A stretch of 51,715 bases of DNA from Candidatus Omnitrophota bacterium (GTDB lineage Bacteria; Omnitrophota; Gorgyraeia; Gygaellales; Profunditerraquicolaceae): the NCBI GenBank assembly GCA_016867115.1, contig VGKG01000007.1, forward strand, positions 1-51,715, in the 5' to 3' direction. The translations under genes were made by a program, and so were the position numbers. The notes under the pieces were generated by a model. The model ran no database searches. It was not told the origin of the DNA and worked only from the letters and a program-made list of their open reading frames with translations. Shown here one piece after another: positions 1,670 through 47,779 of the stretch. Position 1 is the first letter of the stretch, and every line of letters begins with the position of its first letter.

Positions 1670-1681
1670 AAGCCGCCTCCT

Positions 1682-1813
1682 AGTATAATCCTCTAGTGAA
1701 ACTATTGATTATACTTGATTACACAGATTTTTAAAAATAGATTACGCAGATTAAAGCCTCAGCCGATTTTGTTTCTAATCTGTGTAATCTGAGCATTCTA
1801 ATCTGTGTAATCT
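1682..1813 (-). repeat. GATTACACAGATT leader element, copy 1
   Basis: On the plus strand the element reads AGTATAATC (1682-1690), loop, GATTATACT (1707-1715), two direct units GATTACACAGATT (1718) and GATTACGCAGATT (1740), then two inverted units AATCTGTGTAATC (1777 and 1800). The inverted units can pair with the direct ones in a nested hairpin. It lies between a good promoter (1822-1849) and the Shine-Dalgarno sequence of the membrane protein gene at 1669, so it would be transcribed as 5' untranslated RNA. The same layout recurs at 26846, 28919 and 36834. Confidence 0.85.
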
Positions 1814-1821
1814 TAATATTA

Positions 1822-1849
1822 ATTTTACGGGATATCTACTTTGTCTCAA
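1822..1849 (-). promoter_or_regulatory. Sigma70-type promoter upstream of the 1669 gene
   Basis: On the minus strand TTGAGA (1844-1849) is followed after 16 bases by TAAAAT (1822-1827). The -35 box is next to the rmuC stop codon region. Transcription would start near 1815, right at the edge of leader element copy 1. Predicted from sequence only. Confidence 0.55.
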
Positions 1850-25937: not shown

Positions 25938-26831
25938 TTACACCTTTCTTTTTATTTTGGATTTGTCTTCCGGAATCTGTCCTGCCCGCCCTTTTTTGGT
26001 GGGGTGCTCCTCGCCCCCAACAGGCTCGGTGGTCTCGACTATCTCTTCTATCTCCTTGATCTCCTGCTCTTCTTCGGGTAAAATTACCGGCCCCTCTTCG
26101 CCCTTCTCTTCCTTCAGGGCCACGCCTTCCTGCGAAAGGTAGGAAAGGAACTTTTTCCTGCCTTCGATCACGGTATCCGCAAGGATCGAAGTGACCAGAT
26201 GGATGGATTTGGTGGCGTCGTCATTGCCGGGGATGGGATAATCCACCAGGTCGGGATTGGAATTGGTGTCTATCAGGGCGATGATGGGGATGCCGAGCCT
26301 GCGCGCTTCATTTACCGCAGTCTCTTCTTTCTTGGTATCGACGATAAAGATGGCCTTGGGCATACGCTCCATCGGCACGATACCGGCAAAGTTCTTCTTT
26401 AATTTCGCCGATTCCTTCTCAAGGCGGGCGACCTCTTTCTTGGTGAGCTTGCTGAAGGTGCCGTCCTCGCGCATCTTCTCTATGTCTTTGAGCCGGTTGA
26501 TGCTCTTTTTTATGGTGGCAAAATTGGTCAGGAGCCCTCCGGGCCAGCGGTCGGTGACGTAATACATCCCGGAGCGGATGGCCTCCTGCAGCACCACTTC
26601 CTGCGCCTGTTTCTTTGTCCCGACAAAGAGCACGTATTCACCCTTTGAGGTGACATCCAGCAGGAAATCCCTGGCGCGGTTAATGCATTCTTCGGTCTTT
26701 TCCAGGTCCACGATGTAGATGCCGCTGCGTTCGCCGAAGATGAACTTCTTCATCTTGGGGTTCCAGCGCTTGGTCTGGTGCCCGAAATGGACCCCTGCCT
26801 CTAAAAGCTTTTTGATCAGTTCTGATGGCAC
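25938..26831 (-). CDS. rpsB: Ribosomal protein uS2 with acidic tail
   Basis: A 297-residue small-subunit protein uS2. The conserved core is [40 protein letters not shown] and [20 protein letters not shown]. After about residue 230 there is an extra glutamate-rich tail ending in lysines, roughly 55 residues beyond the E. coli length. The start is GTG with GGGAGG upstream. Its leader of about 250 bases contains leader element copy 2, a heptamer stretch and a GC-rich hairpin. Confidence 0.96.
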
Positions 26832-26845
26832 TTTTCTTATCCTCC

Positions 26846-26955
26846 CGTATAATATTTGCGTATAATCTTGGATTATACGTGATTACACAGATTTTTTTAG
26901 ATTACACAGATTAAAGCTTCCAATCTGTGTAATCATTTTTTCAATCTGTGTAATC
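26846..26955 (-). repeat. GATTACACAGATT leader element, copy 2
   Basis: Plus-strand order: CGTATAAT (26846), CGTATAATC (26859-26867) pairing with GATTATACG (26871-26879), direct units GATTACACAGATT at 26881 and 26900, loop AAGCTT, then AATCTGTGTAATC at 26922 and 26943. The closing pair of the small hairpin is C-G here. It abuts the rpsB Shine-Dalgarno sequence. Confidence 0.85.
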
Positions 26956-26962
26956 ATTTTTT

Positions 26963-27113: not shown

Positions 27114-28904
27114 CTATTTTTGCAGCTCTTGAAGGGAATAAAGCCTCCTGTAAAGCCCTCCCTGCGAGATGAGTTCGTTGTGCGTGCCCTGTTCTACGAT
27201 CACTCCCTTGTCTAACACGATGATGCGCTGGGCATTACGCACCGTAGTAAGGCGGTGGGCGATGACAAAAACCGTCCTGCCCTGCATCAGCCTGTCCAGG
27301 GCCTCCTGCACGATCCGCTCTGCCTCGGTATCCAGCTGCGAAGTAGCCTCATCGAGGATCAATATCGGTGGGTTCTTTAATAACGCGCGGGCAATGGCGA
27401 TCCTCTGGCGCTCTCCTCCGGAGAGCTTCATGCCGCGGTCTCCGATTACCGTATTATAACCTAACGGCAGATGCGCTATGAACTCATGGGCGTGCGCCAG
27501 CTGGGCCGCCTGTTCGATATCCCTGGTCCTGGCGTCGAGGTTTCCGTAAGCGATATTGGCCTTGATCGTATCATTAAAAAGGATCGTCTCCTGGGTCACG
27601 ATGCCGATCGCCCCGCGCAATGACTTCAGGGTCAGGCCCCGGATATCCGCTCCGTCGATGAGGAGCCTCCCCTTTTTGGGGTCATAAAAGCGCGGGATAA
27701 GGTCTAAAAGCGTGCTTTTACCGGTGCCGCTTGGGCCGACCACGGCGACCATCTGGCCCTTTTCCACTTCCAGATTTACTCCCTTAAGCACCTGGTTATC
27801 GCCGTAATTGAACCAGACATCCTCGAAAACAATTTTTCCGGCGAAGGGGCGCATCTCCTGGGCATTCTCCCTTTCCCTGACTGAAGGCTCGGTTTCCAGG
27901 ACCTCATAGATCCTCTCGCTGGCTGCCACTGCCTGTTCATTGATGGCGTTCACCTGGCTTAATTTCTTGAATGGCCGGATGAGCGATAAAAGGGAGCCCA
28001 GAAATAGCCCGAACACGCCGAAAGAAAGCGTGCCGGCGATCACCTCCCTGCCTCCCCAGAAAAAGACAAAGACTCCGGCGATGCAGCCTAAGAATTCTGT
28101 GCTCGGCCCGACCAGGAGCATGCGCTTGATGGATTTCATGGCCAGGCGGTAATAATCGTGGTTCACTTTTTTAAACTTTTCTATCTCGTAGCCCTCCATA
28201 TTAAAAGCCTTGACAATGCGCGTGCCGATGATCGTCTCATAAAGCAGGGAATTGATATCCGCCATCTTCTCCTGGCCTCTCTTGGAGAGGCGGCGCAGGA
28301 CCTTACCCACCATGACGATGGGGAAAGCGATCAGGGGCAGAAGCACAAAAGCGATCAGGGCCATCTTGAAGTAGATAAGAAAGGTAAGGAGGGTGAAGAT
28401 GACCACCTGCATGGTCTGATAGACCAGGTCTGTCGAGCCGTAGGAGACAGCATTCTCCACGAGCTTCACGTCGTTAGTGATGCGTGACATGAGCTCCCCG
28501 CCGCGCTTATGGGTAAAATAGTCGAGCGAGAGGGACTGCAGCTTGGTATAGAGTTTATCCCGGATATCCTTGACCACCGACTGGCCGATATCGGACATGA
28601 GGTAGCTCTGGAAGAATCCGACCAGGCCCTTGAAAAGAAAAAGCGCCAATACCCCCGCCGCAATATAGACCAGCATATCCTGCGCCGGAGTATTATTGAT
28701 CTTATCGATAAAATCAGCCAGAAAGGCAGGGAGTTTAGTGGGGATAATGATCTTTTTATTAGTCAGGACCTTGTCTGCCAGGGGCACGATCATGGCCAGC
28801 TGCACCCCGTCAAAAATCGCGGAAAACCCCATAAAAACCGAAGCTAAGAGGAACTTTCCGGTATAGGGCCGCACAAAACGCAGTAACCTCATGTAATCGC
28901 GCAT
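27114..28904 (-). CDS. msbA: MsbA-type lipid flippase (ABC transporter)
   Basis: A 596-residue fused ABC exporter half-transporter. Six membrane helices occupy about residues 15-310. The ATPase has Walker A GPSGTGKST (390-398), signature LSGGERQ (494-500) and Walker B ILILDEA (514-520). MsbA flips lipid A-core across the inner membrane. The neighbouring lpxB supports the lipid A role, though other lipid or drug exporters share this architecture. Its promoter overlaps that of the divergent oxidoreductase gene, and leader element copy 3 fills its leader. Confidence 0.88.
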   Translation of the reverse strand: MRDYMRLLRFVRPYTGKFLLASVFMGFSAIFDGVQLAMIVPLADKVLTNKKIIIPTKLPAFLADFIDKINNTPAQDMLVYIAAGVLALFLFKGLVGFFQSYLMSDIGQSVVKDIRDKLYTKLQSLSLDYFTHKRGGELMSRITNDVKLVENAVSYGSTDLVYQTMQVVIFTLLTFLIYFKMALIAFVLLPLIAFPIVMVGKVLRRLSKRGQEKMADINSLLYETIIGTRIVKAFNMEGYEIEKFKKVNHDYYRLAMKSIKRMLLVGPSTEFLGCIAGVFVFFWGGREVIAGTLSFGVFGLFLGSLLSLIRPFKKLSQVNAINEQAVAASERIYEVLETEPSVRERENAQEMRPFAGKIVFEDVWFNYGDNQVLKGVNLEVEKGQMVAVVGPSGTGKSTLLDLIPRFYDPKKGRLLIDGADIRGLTLKSLRGAIGIVTQETILFNDTIKANIAYGNLDARTRDIEQAAQLAHAHEFIAHLPLGYNTVIGDRGMKLSGGERQRIAIARALLKNPPILILDEATSQLDTEAERIVQEALDRLMQGRTVFVIAHRLTTVRNAQRIIVLDKGVIVEQGTHNELISQGGLYRRLYSLQELQK

Positions 28905-28918
28905 CTTTTAAACCTCCT

Positions 28919-29030
28919 GGTATAATCCTCAAGCATAATTATAGATTATACCTGATTACACAGATTAATTCAGATTACACAGATTACAAGCTTTTATCTG
29001 TGTAATCTGCTTTAAAAATCTGTGTAATCA
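28919..29030 (-). repeat. GATTACACAGATT leader element, copy 3
   Basis: Plus-strand order: GGTATAATC (28919-28927), GATTATACC (28944-28952), GATTACACAGATT (28954 and 28973), loop with AAGCTT, ATCTGTGTAATC (28997), AATCTGTGTAATC (29018-29030). The closing pair of the small hairpin is G-C. It lies between the msbA promoter and the msbA Shine-Dalgarno sequence. Confidence 0.87.
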
Positions 29031-35299: not shown

Positions 35300-36823
35300 T
35301 TAGGTCACGAAAAGGTTGCGCGATGAGAACTTTCCGTCTGTAGTGAGGTTTACGCCCAGCCTCTTTAAGCCCACTTCATCGCCGGGGGTGGGGATATGGG
35401 TCATGTGCACTTCGCAGCCCCTCAGCTCCACAAGTTTCTCCATGGCGAGTTCCGCGGTGTGATTGGTAGTCGCGCTTATGGAGAGCGCAATCAGGGTCTC
35501 TTCAAGATCAAGGCTCTCAGACTCGCTGTCCAGGATACCTTCTTTGAGTTTGGCGATCTGATTGATGATGTGGGGAGAAAGCAGGAGTATCTCATCCGGG
35601 ATATTTGCTATCTGCTTAAGGGCGTTGAGGATCAGGCTTGAAGCAGCATGCATCAGCCGCGAGTTCTTTCCGGTAAAGATCCGGCCGTCGTTCAACTGGA
35701 TAGCTGCCCCGCAGAATATCCCTTCATTGCCTTTACCCTTGGCCTCTGCCTCTTCTGCGGCGCGCCGGGCTGCCTCTACCACGGTCCGGTCCGTTACTTT
35801 GATACCCAGCTCCTCCATCAGGAGCACCACCCTGTCTACGGTCTCCTTTTTTTCAATACCCATGACATATTCGGCATTATAACGGAAATACCGGCGGATC
35901 AGCTCCTGTCTTGCCGCTTCCTGCACCGTCTTATCGTCGACGATGCCGAAACCTGCGCGGTTTACCCCCATATCCGTAGGCGAATTGTACATCGGCAGGT
36001 TGACATTTTTATCGAAGATCCGGGTCAGGATCAGCTTCAGGATGGGAAAGCTCTCTACGTCGCGGTTGTAATTGATGGCGGTCTTATTGTATTTGTTGAG
36101 GTGGAACGGATCGACCAGGTTGAAATCCTGGATATCGGCGGTAGCTGCCTCATAGGCTACGTTCACCGGATGTTTCAGCGGCAGGTTCCAGATGGGGAAG
36201 GTCTCAAACTTTGCGTATCCGGCGTTTATCGAGCGCTTGTGCTCCTGGTAAAGCTGCGAAAGGCAGACGGCGAGTTTTCCGCTGTTAGGGCCGGGTGCGG
36301 TGACTACAACGATGGGATTTTTACTTTCGATGTAATCGTTCTTGCCGAGACCCTTATCGCCGACTATCGTATCCACGTCCGCAGGGTAGCCCTCTATCGG
36401 ATAATGCAGGTATACTTTGACGCCGCGGCGTTCCAGTTTATTCTTAAAGATCGCTGCCGAAGGCTGGTTGGCAAAACGGGTGATCACCACCGCCAGGATA
36501 TCCAGGCCCCATTTACGCAGGTCATCGATCAATTTCAGGGTGGCTGCGTCATAGGTAATTCCGAAGTCGCCGCGTACCCTGCCCTTTTCGATGTCTCCGG
36601 CATAGATGGCCAGGACGATATCGATCTTATCTTTGAGCTGCTGCAAGAGCCGGATCTTCACATTGGGGTCATAACCCGGCAAAACCCTGGCAGCGTGGTA
36701 ATCAAAACAGAGCTTGCCTCCGAACTCAAGGTAAAGCTTATTGTTAAACTTCTTCACCCGGTCCAGGATCGCCGCGCTCTGCTCTTTCAGGTATTTTTCA
36801 TTGTCAAATCCTGCTCTCTTCAT
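35300..36823 (-). CDS. DUF1846 family protein
   Basis: A 507-residue protein of the DUF1846 (UPF0371) family, typically about 490-510 residues. Typical features include GFDNEKYLKEQSAAILDRV near the N-terminus, CFDYHAARVLPGYDPNVKIR, and VVVTAPGPNSGKLAVCLSQL. Function in the family is not established. The ATG follows CCAGGAG. Leader element copy 4 lies between its promoter (36992-37020) and the Shine-Dalgarno sequence. Confidence 0.92.
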   Translation of the reverse strand: MKRAGFDNEKYLKEQSAAILDRVKKFNNKLYLEFGGKLCFDYHAARVLPGYDPNVKIRLLQQLKDKIDIVLAIYAGDIEKGRVRGDFGITYDAATLKLIDDLRKWGLDILAVVITRFANQPSAAIFKNKLERRGVKVYLHYPIEGYPADVDTIVGDKGLGKNDYIESKNPIVVVTAPGPNSGKLAVCLSQLYQEHKRSINAGYAKFETFPIWNLPLKHPVNVAYEAATADIQDFNLVDPFHLNKYNKTAINYNRDVESFPILKLILTRIFDKNVNLPMYNSPTDMGVNRAGFGIVDDKTVQEAARQELIRRYFRYNAEYVMGIEKKETVDRVVLLMEELGIKVTDRTVVEAARRAAEEAEAKGKGNEGIFCGAAIQLNDGRIFTGKNSRLMHAASSLILNALKQIANIPDEILLLSPHIINQIAKLKEGILDSESESLDLEETLIALSISATTNHTAELAMEKLVELRGCEVHMTHIPTPGDEVGLKRLGVNLTTDGKFSSRNLFVT

Positions 36824-36833
36824 CGCCTCTCCT

Positions 36834-36950
36834 GGTATAATGTTTCAGGTATAATCGCAATGCATTATACCTGATTACACAGATTTTTAATAAAGATTAC
36901 ACAGATTAAAGCTTCTATCTGTGTAATCTGCTTTTATAATCTGCGTAATC
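36834..36950 (-). repeat. GATTACACAGATT leader element, copy 4
   Basis: Plus-strand order: GGTATAAT (36834), AGGTATAAT (36847-36855) pairing with ATTATACCT (36864-36872), GATTACACAGATT at 36873 and 36895, loop with AAGCTT, ATCTGTGTAATC (36917), AATCTGCGTAATC (36938-36950). As in copy 2 there are three ATTATAC-type arms. It abuts the DUF1846 Shine-Dalgarno sequence. Confidence 0.87.
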
Positions 36951-36991
36951 ATAAATATGATTTTTATAGGCTGACTATTTTTTAAAGACCC

Positions 36992-37020
36992 ATTATATTA
37001 TAGCGGCTAGATCAGGGCAA
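36992..37020 (-). promoter_or_regulatory. Promoter for the DUF1846-VTT-nuclease operon
   Basis: On the minus strand TTGCCC (37015-37020), 17 bases, TATAAT (36992-36997). The -35 box is inside the 3' end of the HD-GYP gene. Transcription would start near 36985, shortly before leader element copy 4. Confidence 0.6.
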
Positions 37021-46915: not shown

Positions 46916-46930
46916 TTTCCTTCAACCCAG

Positions 46931-46958
46931 CATACTGCATACAGCCTACTGCATACTA
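46931..46958 (-). repeat. 7-bp-period array at the nfnA-nfnB junction
   Basis: Plus-strand heptamers CATACTG, CATACAG, CCTACTG, CATACTA. The TAG stop of the nfnA-type gene (46946-46948) lies inside the array, so its last codons (DSM-Q) are written in repeat sequence. Confidence 0.65.
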
Positions 46959-47779
46959 TCGTATAACTTGCAGATGTGCTTTTCTTTATCCTCATAGACC
47001 CGGTTTCTCTTCTCCAGCTCTTCCCAGTCCACGTCGCTACCGTCAAACTCCGGGCCGTCGATGCAGCTGAACCTGGTCTGGCCTGCCACATGCACGCGGC
47101 AGCATCCGCACATGCCGGTGGCATCCACCATCAGGGCATTCAGGGAGACGATGCTTCTGACGCCGAGTTCAGCGCTCACCTTGGCGGCCCGCTTCATCAT
47201 CGGGATCGGGCCTACGGCATACACCAGGTCATATTTTGTATTTTTTAGCAGCTCTGCCAGAACTTCCGTGGTAAAGCCTTTTCTTCCGTAAGAGCCGTCG
47301 TCAGTAGTGACACAAAACTCATCGGATGCCTCTTTCAGCTCATCCTCCAGGATCAAAAAATCTTTGTTCCTGGCCCCGATAATGGTGGCAATGCGGTTAC
47401 CTGCCTTCTTAAAGGCCCTGGCTACCGGCAGGATCTCCGCGATCCCCACCCCGCCGCCGATAAGGATGATCTTGCCGTAGTTCTTAATCTCGGTGGGGTG
47501 TCCCAGCGGTCCTACCAGCGCGTATAAAGAATCTCCGGCATTGAGCCTGCCCAGGAGCCGGGTGGTAAAGCCTGCCTCCTGGAAGATCAGGGTGATCGCG
47601 CCTTTTGCTTCGTCCTTATCCACGATGGTCAGAGGCACCCTTTCCCCCTCTTCGGAGCCCATCAGCGCCACAAACTGGCCGGGTGAGGCCTTTGCGGCAA
47701 TATCCGGCGCAAGGACGTCCAGCCGGGTGATCTTCATGCCCCCTGTATCTGTTAAAACCTGCTTGTTTAGTATCTTCAT
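46946..47779 (-). CDS. NfnA-type ferredoxin:NADP oxidoreductase, FAD/[2Fe-2S] subunit
   Basis: A 277-residue FNR-like protein. It has FAD/NAD domains (GEGVPLTI-type segment here ERVPLTIVD, then LIGGGVGIAEILPVARAF) and a C-terminal [2Fe-2S] region with GMCGCCRVHVAGQTRFSCID followed by GPEFDGSDVDW. With the downstream protein it should form a NfnAB complex linking NADH, NADPH and ferredoxin; sulfide dehydrogenase SudAB is an alternative. The frame starts at a TTG (47791), but the ATG at 47779 is preferred, with GGCGG upstream. A promoter and attenuator-like leader lie directly upstream. Confidence 0.85.
   Translation of the reverse strand: MKILNKQVLTDTGGMKITRLDVLAPDIAAKASPGQFVALMGSEEGERVPLTIVDKDEAKGAITLIFQEAGFTTRLLGRLNAGDSLYALVGPLGHPTEIKNYGKIILIGGGVGIAEILPVARAFKKAGNRIATIIGARNKDFLILEDELKEASDEFCVTTDDGSYGRKGFTTEVLAELLKNTKYDLVYAVGPIPMMKRAAKVSAELGVRSIVSLNALMVDATGMCGCCRVHVAGQTRFSCIDGPEFDGSDVDWEELEKRNRVYEDKEKHICKLYDSMQ

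Follow-up and report, generated by a model that had tools for sequence, protein, structure and literature searches.

Leader repeats in an Omnitrophota genome as probable miniature mobile elements inserted directly 5′ of Shine-Dalgarno sequences

Four structured repeats that precede different genes in a 51,715-nt stretch of a Candidatus Omnitrophota genome (GenBank assembly GCA_016867115.1, contig VGKG01000007.1; the whole stretch is herein called the window) are, judging from sequence comparison, very probably copies of a miniature mobile element. Each would be an ORF-less derivative of a larger element that carries a gene for a nuclease-like protein of the GxxExxY family, and each would have inserted directly 5′ of the Shine-Dalgarno sequence (SD) of the gene downstream. 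The original prediction had considered the repeats either a family of RNA regulatory elements or a mobile repeat turned leader, and the mobile repeat of the second reading is supported by empty sites in related genomes, ORF-bearing relatives, hairpin ends and copies in several phyla.

All four copies were recovered at the predicted positions and in a single orientation, with the minus strand as the coding strand (Table 1), and the window holds 16 matches to the unit GATTACACAGATT at ≤2 mismatches compared with 0.74 expected. As proposed, the GTATAAT/ATTATAC hairpin adjoins the SD in 4/4 window copies, but it usually has three arms rather than two (xGTATAAT-n5-ATTATACx′-n5-ATTATACx′). The direct and inverted units are likewise present, although the AAGCTT loop that they were said to surround is absent from copy 1, and the gene-distal limits had been drawn too short, with copies 1 and 4 extending further upstream. 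The left end of copy 4 was placed by eye, through alignment to the AGACATCC ends of other copies, and the left end of copy 1 (AGATATCC) overlaps the TAG stop codon of the upstream rmuC gene (1836-2768). Overlap between the TAG stop of an upstream gene and the first two bases of the element, AG, was seen at L037, L060, L064, L093 and L127, so that insertion seems to preserve a T/AG stop wherever the SD, too, starts with AG. Pfam supported the downstream genes named for three copies (ribosomal protein S2, ABC transporter and DUF1846), whereas the 99-aa ORF that follows copy 1 has no Pfam match. Promoters had been placed directly before three copies; sigma-70-like matches do lie just upstream of the copies at 36834 and 28919, but the claim is weak since such matches are not above chance in the scanned region (12 vs. 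9.1 ± 3.3 in shuffles). A second short repeat phrase, of the TATGCAGTA type, occurs in the window at 2776-2811 and 46926-46960 (mutually 80% identical), immediately before the minus-strand start codons of rmuC (2768) and an FAD/Fe-S oxidoreductase gene (46915), and is possibly another leader-targeting repeat family.

Table 1 Features of the four element copies and their surroundings in the window.
Feature	Coordinates	Strand	Remarks
Complete element, copy 4	36834..36976	-	Left end AGTCAGCC.. at 36976; foot of right end GGTATAAT.. at 36834
Copy 4, right-end block with three arms (terminal hairpin)	36834..36871	-	GGTATAAT-n-ATTATACC-n-ATTATACC
Copy 4, core with two direct and two inverted GATTACACAGATT units	36873..36950	-	
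Host SD AGGAGAGG, putative insertion target, directly 3′ of copy 4	36826..36833	-	Empty sites elsewhere suggest host origin
DUF1846 gene downstream of copy 4	35300..36823	-	Pfam
TTGCCC-17-TATAAT, a sigma-70-like match shortly before the left end of copy 4	36992..37020	-	Consensus match only
Element copy 1, A-T closing pair	1682..1837	-	
Host SD AGGAGG of the 99-aa ORF (1370-1669), at copy 1	1676..1681	-	
Element copy 2, C-G closing pair, upstream of rpsB (25938-26831)	26846..26956	-	Left hairpin not recognisable
Host SD GGAGGA of rpsB, at copy 2	26840..26845	-	
Element copy 3, G-C closing pair, upstream of the ABC transporter gene (27114-28904)	28919..29030	-	Left hairpin not recognisable
Host SD AGGAGG of the ABC transporter gene, at copy 3	28913..28918	-	

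The source genome, a 1.47-Mb Omnitrophota-type MAG, contains approximately 30 copies of the element. Exact matches to the 13-nt unit number 60, compared with none for the reversed control, and they fall into 30 clusters that make up 29 elements. In the complete element, a left end formed by the hairpin A-GACATCC..GGATGTC-T and a right end reading GGTATAAT..ATTATACC (the right block) flank four units. The pattern GTATAAT-n-ATTATAC was found at 15 places in the genome, 14 of them within unit-bearing elements; the fifteenth (C1:156824) is an element that has lost its core and is reduced to left end AGACATCCTATAAAGATC plus right block, situated after a stop codon and before the AGGAG of the following gene. 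Around half of the source-genome copies have no recognisable right block, and most of these still shortly precede a start codon. The block has three arms in most source-genome copies and two in many copies from other phyla; the three-arm form resembles a 13-nt tandem duplication (GGTATAATCCTCA GGTATAATCACTG ATTATACC in L040; cf. window 36834-36871), with an internal copy that resembles the CCTCC target. Another palindromic repeat, TTCCCGCC...GGCGGGAAAA, is inserted in the unit spacers of L040, L041 and L035 (source genome C23, C24 and C16). Some subfamilies (L230, L233, L234, L237 and L238) have other end hairpins around the same units, e.g., AGAGGTCGC/GCGACCTCT and AGTTAATG/CATTAACT, and lie away from SDs, while in L231 and L232 the units sit within apparently open coding sequence and are read in frame. 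Two matches to the element pattern are on viral contigs.

In the source genome, 15/15 right blocks are immediately followed by an SD with its start codon. Public genomes, searched with a pattern of unit plus block that omitted the SD, yielded at least 109 stretches; by record title, the matches listed come from Omnitrophota, WOR-3/Stahlbacteria, Cloacimonadota, Nitrospirae/Thermodesulfovibrionia, Elusimicrobiota, Thermodesulfobacteriota MAGs and others, and thus span at least six phyla, where single cross-phylum matches could be binning errors since most records are MAGs. From the source genome, its relatives and the public matches listed we compiled 118 distinct elements, a partly redundant set selected on exact GTATAAT/ATTATAC arms, and since the search fixed the arm sequences it is uninformative on arm conservation. 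Among these, an SD-like motif begins 0-3 nt after the element in 108/118 and at offset 0 in 86/118, and a strict AGG[AG]G stands at offset 0 in 83/118, against a window background of 0.0026 per base. Of the ten exceptions, several have no units and appear to match the pattern by chance. The consensus of the six bases that follow the element in the 118 listed is A (.86), G (.86), G (.89), A (.70), G (.84), G (.64). Copies are not equally frequent downstream of genes or inside them, and the block always faces the SD. Both ends and the upstream gene were assigned for 31 elements, 19 of which have at least 50 nt of upstream noncoding DNA, and 18/19 of these roomy elements are still 0-1 nt from the SD; lack of space alone therefore does not explain the adjacency. 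Purifying selection could contribute to the placement. Related subfamilies that differ in the right hairpin are located away from SDs, so that SD targeting belongs to one lineage.

Empty sites were resolved at two loci, neither of which is in the window. At the first, G127 carries a copy (L157), and 19 of the 20 congener junctions fetched have no such insert. These 19 read ..CACTTTCA-AAGGAGG..ATGGCC or a variant, compared with ..GTCA-[AGACATCC...ATTATACC]-AGGAGG..ATGGCC in G127, and their SD, mostly CA-AAGGAGG, is kept at the same distance from the ATG. An unrelated palindromic insert occupies the same site in G112 (L191, G112:C30), also directly 5′ of the SD. At the second locus, crcB/DUF190, the query consisted of the two flanks joined and the alignment ran through the junction: G024 reads ..AAATGA-[AGACATCC...ATTATAC]-AGGGGGTGTTATG vs. 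..AAATAAGGGGGGAATATG in G095, i.e., crcB-TGA-[element]-AGGGGGTGTTATG corresponds to CTATTTAAATAAGGGGGGAATATG. Relatives that lack the element have the same SD, which is therefore host sequence and marks the insertion point; because the SD is there before any insertion, target choice accounts better for the placement. The flanking SDs also differ among copies (AGGAGG, AGGGGG, GGAGGC, AAAGGGGG), as expected of host sequence, and on both grounds we rejected the SD as a part of the element. A target duplication above 2 bp is ruled out at both empty sites, where at most A or AG (1-2 bp) is duplicated; this, together with left and right end hairpins that differ in sequence, led us to reject a MITE of a DDE transposon. 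The IS200/IS605 family is not known to duplicate its target.

The longer versions of the element indicate where the short ones may come from. Exactly one PF13366 gene is present in the source genome, and it lies inside an element, between the unit pairs that form its 5′ and 3′ flanks, with its start codon in the first unit. The ORF of the full-length element scores 126.5 bits against TIGR04256 (cut-off 35) and reaches an E-value of 3e-35 for PF13366. GxxExxY matches that are whole, partial or internally deleted (e.g., residues 1-24 plus 84-130 in L105) occur within 200 nt upstream of 23/131 blocks at related loci, and GxxExxY ORFs between the same repeat units are also found in other phyla. 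Because these longer versions carry the gene between the units, the window copies look like ORF-less derivatives. Across the phylum PF13366 was detected in 55/384 genomes, and G127 has a copy of the element and no GxxExxY gene. Inverted repeats around the gene exceed every shuffle in 25/30 loci examined, and the repeat phrase varies by locus (GATTACACAGATT, CACAGAGGACACAGAG, ACACGAAT and others). At most GxxExxY loci of the phylum (L257-L285), clustered short repeats border the gene on one side and inverted copies of them on the other, and some of these loci (L265, L267 and L268) adjoin tRNA genes. In 28 GxxExxY sequences the residues G31/E36/Y39, D75, E85 and K87 are invariant, and a structural model (pLDDT 90) has Cas4, lambda exonuclease and Hjc folds among its best Foldseek matches in the PDB. 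By its modelled fold and its conserved D...ExK core, the product is a member of the PD-(D/E)XK nuclease superfamily and a predicted nuclease.

Whether as RNA or as DNA, the copies of the element fold strongly (z −7.7 to −11.4). When the end hairpins were located through neighbouring units, independently of pairing, the partner arm was complementary at ≥6/7 positions in 98/137 cases, compared with ~25% in swapped controls. The closing base pair of the small hairpin does covary, as had been noted in the window: it is Watson-Crick in 100/111 cases vs. 86.1 when permuted, and 0/20,000 permutations were as high. This is modest evidence since only 10/111 are non-G at that position, and the hairpin and closing-pair counts are not independent since both sets contain related copies. 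Compensatory changes of this kind fit RNA function and recognised transposon ends alike, and since transposon end hairpins predict covariation equally, it gives little preference to a regulatory RNA leader family, in which a structured 5′ UTR would control downstream translation with the SD-adjacent hairpin as a switch. Such a family would agree with the strong folding, with the position of all block copies in 5′ leaders and with the three-arm form, which permits alternative pairings beside the SD; however, the genes downstream are unrelated, the SD lies outside the predicted hairpin, the same element occurs with a nuclease gene inside, and its presence or absence at orthologous sites is precise. 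An Rfam scan of the window matched tRNAs only and no family to the element, and a known Rfam cis-regulatory RNA or riboswitch was rejected on this result. Taken together, we regard the regulatory reading of the original prediction as very unlikely. A regulatory function for individual copies is possible and is not needed to explain the pattern.

It is also conceivable that copies insert anywhere and that only those just 5′ of an SD persist in compact genomes. Some sites are indeed tight gene junctions that tolerate little else, but the adjacency of roomy elements to SDs and the predominance of offset 0 among the matches listed make survival without target choice an unlikely account. A mobile promoter seems improbable to a similar degree: the first arm of every block copy reads TATAAT on the coding strand (by virtue of the search pattern) and could give the downstream gene a −10 box, so that selection would fix copies there, yet no −35-like hexamer was seen by eye 16-18 nt upstream, where a unit lies, no match in the scanned part of the window uses the right-end TATAAT on the coding strand, and a hairpin better explains the compensatory arms. 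Closer to our preferred explanation of a miniature mobile element is a variant that differs in the enzyme only, and that we consider possible but rather doubtful. Here a Y1 HUH transposase acting in trans would move a REPIN- or IS200-IS605-like element that has hairpin ends and a CCTCC target 5′ of the end and that makes no duplication; the GxxExxY gene would be a passenger. In its hairpin ends and its target flank on one side only, the element agrees with the published account of IS200/IS605 (PMC6006769), and a Y1 gene is present in the source genome and in 11/13 genomes tested. Y1 genes are, however, equally common in relatives without the element (90/108 family genomes), and G058 has 10 block copies and no Y1 match, but this genome is 65% complete. 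Furthermore, paired units or end hairpins were found at 0/20 Y1 loci, unlike REPINs near RAYTs, with a single chance-like unit match in L209, and a Y1 transposase as internal or adjacent gene was rejected for the 20 loci inspected. Because Y1 genes occur regardless of the element and its ends are absent from these loci, two candidate routes were kept, and the element may move by Y1-like single-strand transfer in trans or by nuclease-driven mobility.

The element shares traits with three known systems. REPINs are doublets of REP sequences that form hairpins (PMC3116915), and like the REPIN/RAYT system the element is short, palindromic, extragenic, multicopy and non-autonomous mobile DNA with compensatory hairpin changes; it differs in that its ends have no adjoining RAYT, it may enclose a nuclease gene, it lies directly 5′ of SDs, and it is larger and of other sequence. 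With IS200/IS605 (PMC6006769) it has in common hairpin ends, a fixed flank at one end and no clear target duplication (1-2 bp, A or AG, being compatible), whereas its full-length version encodes only the PD-(D/E)XK-like GxxExxY protein and no HUH transposase, and its flank is CCTCC. The intervening sequences of 23S rRNA with an S23p ORF (PMC4990558) are likewise ORF-bearing selfish inserts in a transcribed region, with complementary ends that form a stem and direct repeats near the ends. In contrast to these, the element stands 5′ of protein genes, in mRNA leaders, its ORF is of the nuclease-like PF13366 family rather than S23p, and excision by RNase III is for the element a conjecture by analogy.

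We propose that the element inserts directly 5′ of a gene's SD or, on the other strand, just 3′ of CCTCC, with the hairpins as the recognised ends and CCTCC/AGGAGG as the recognised target. Movement would be by one-ended, probably single-stranded transfer, in which the GxxExxY protein may take part, e.g., as an end or target nuclease. Since an insertion of this kind leaves the SD and start codon of the downstream gene in place, it would be close to harmless and accumulate in leaders and tight intercistronic gaps. Once in the mRNA, the element might form a stem open to removal by RNase III, in the manner of the 23S rRNA intervening sequences. With slightly less than even confidence, we suggest an undescribed class of transposon whose sole gene encodes the GxxExxY PD-(D/E)XK nuclease, whose clustered direct and inverted repeat phrases diversified with the nuclease, of which one lineage homes to SDs across phyla, and which moves without a known transposase or recombinase.

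We found no publication that describes GxxExxY elements, nor one in which the GxxExxY family (PF13366, TIGR04256) is assigned to a mobile element; titles and abstracts held nothing that matches SD-targeted insertion of this kind, and a text search for the unit sequence found no paper. Our results suggest a one-gene mobile system that targets CCTCC/AGGAGG. If this is true, a target choice that spares the ribosome-binding site would be a new safe-harbour strategy, with a logic like that of elements that exploit tRNA genes or terminators. The large, uncharacterised GxxExxY family would also gain a role, and many of the leader repeats in uncultured bacteria that resemble regulatory RNAs would be explained.
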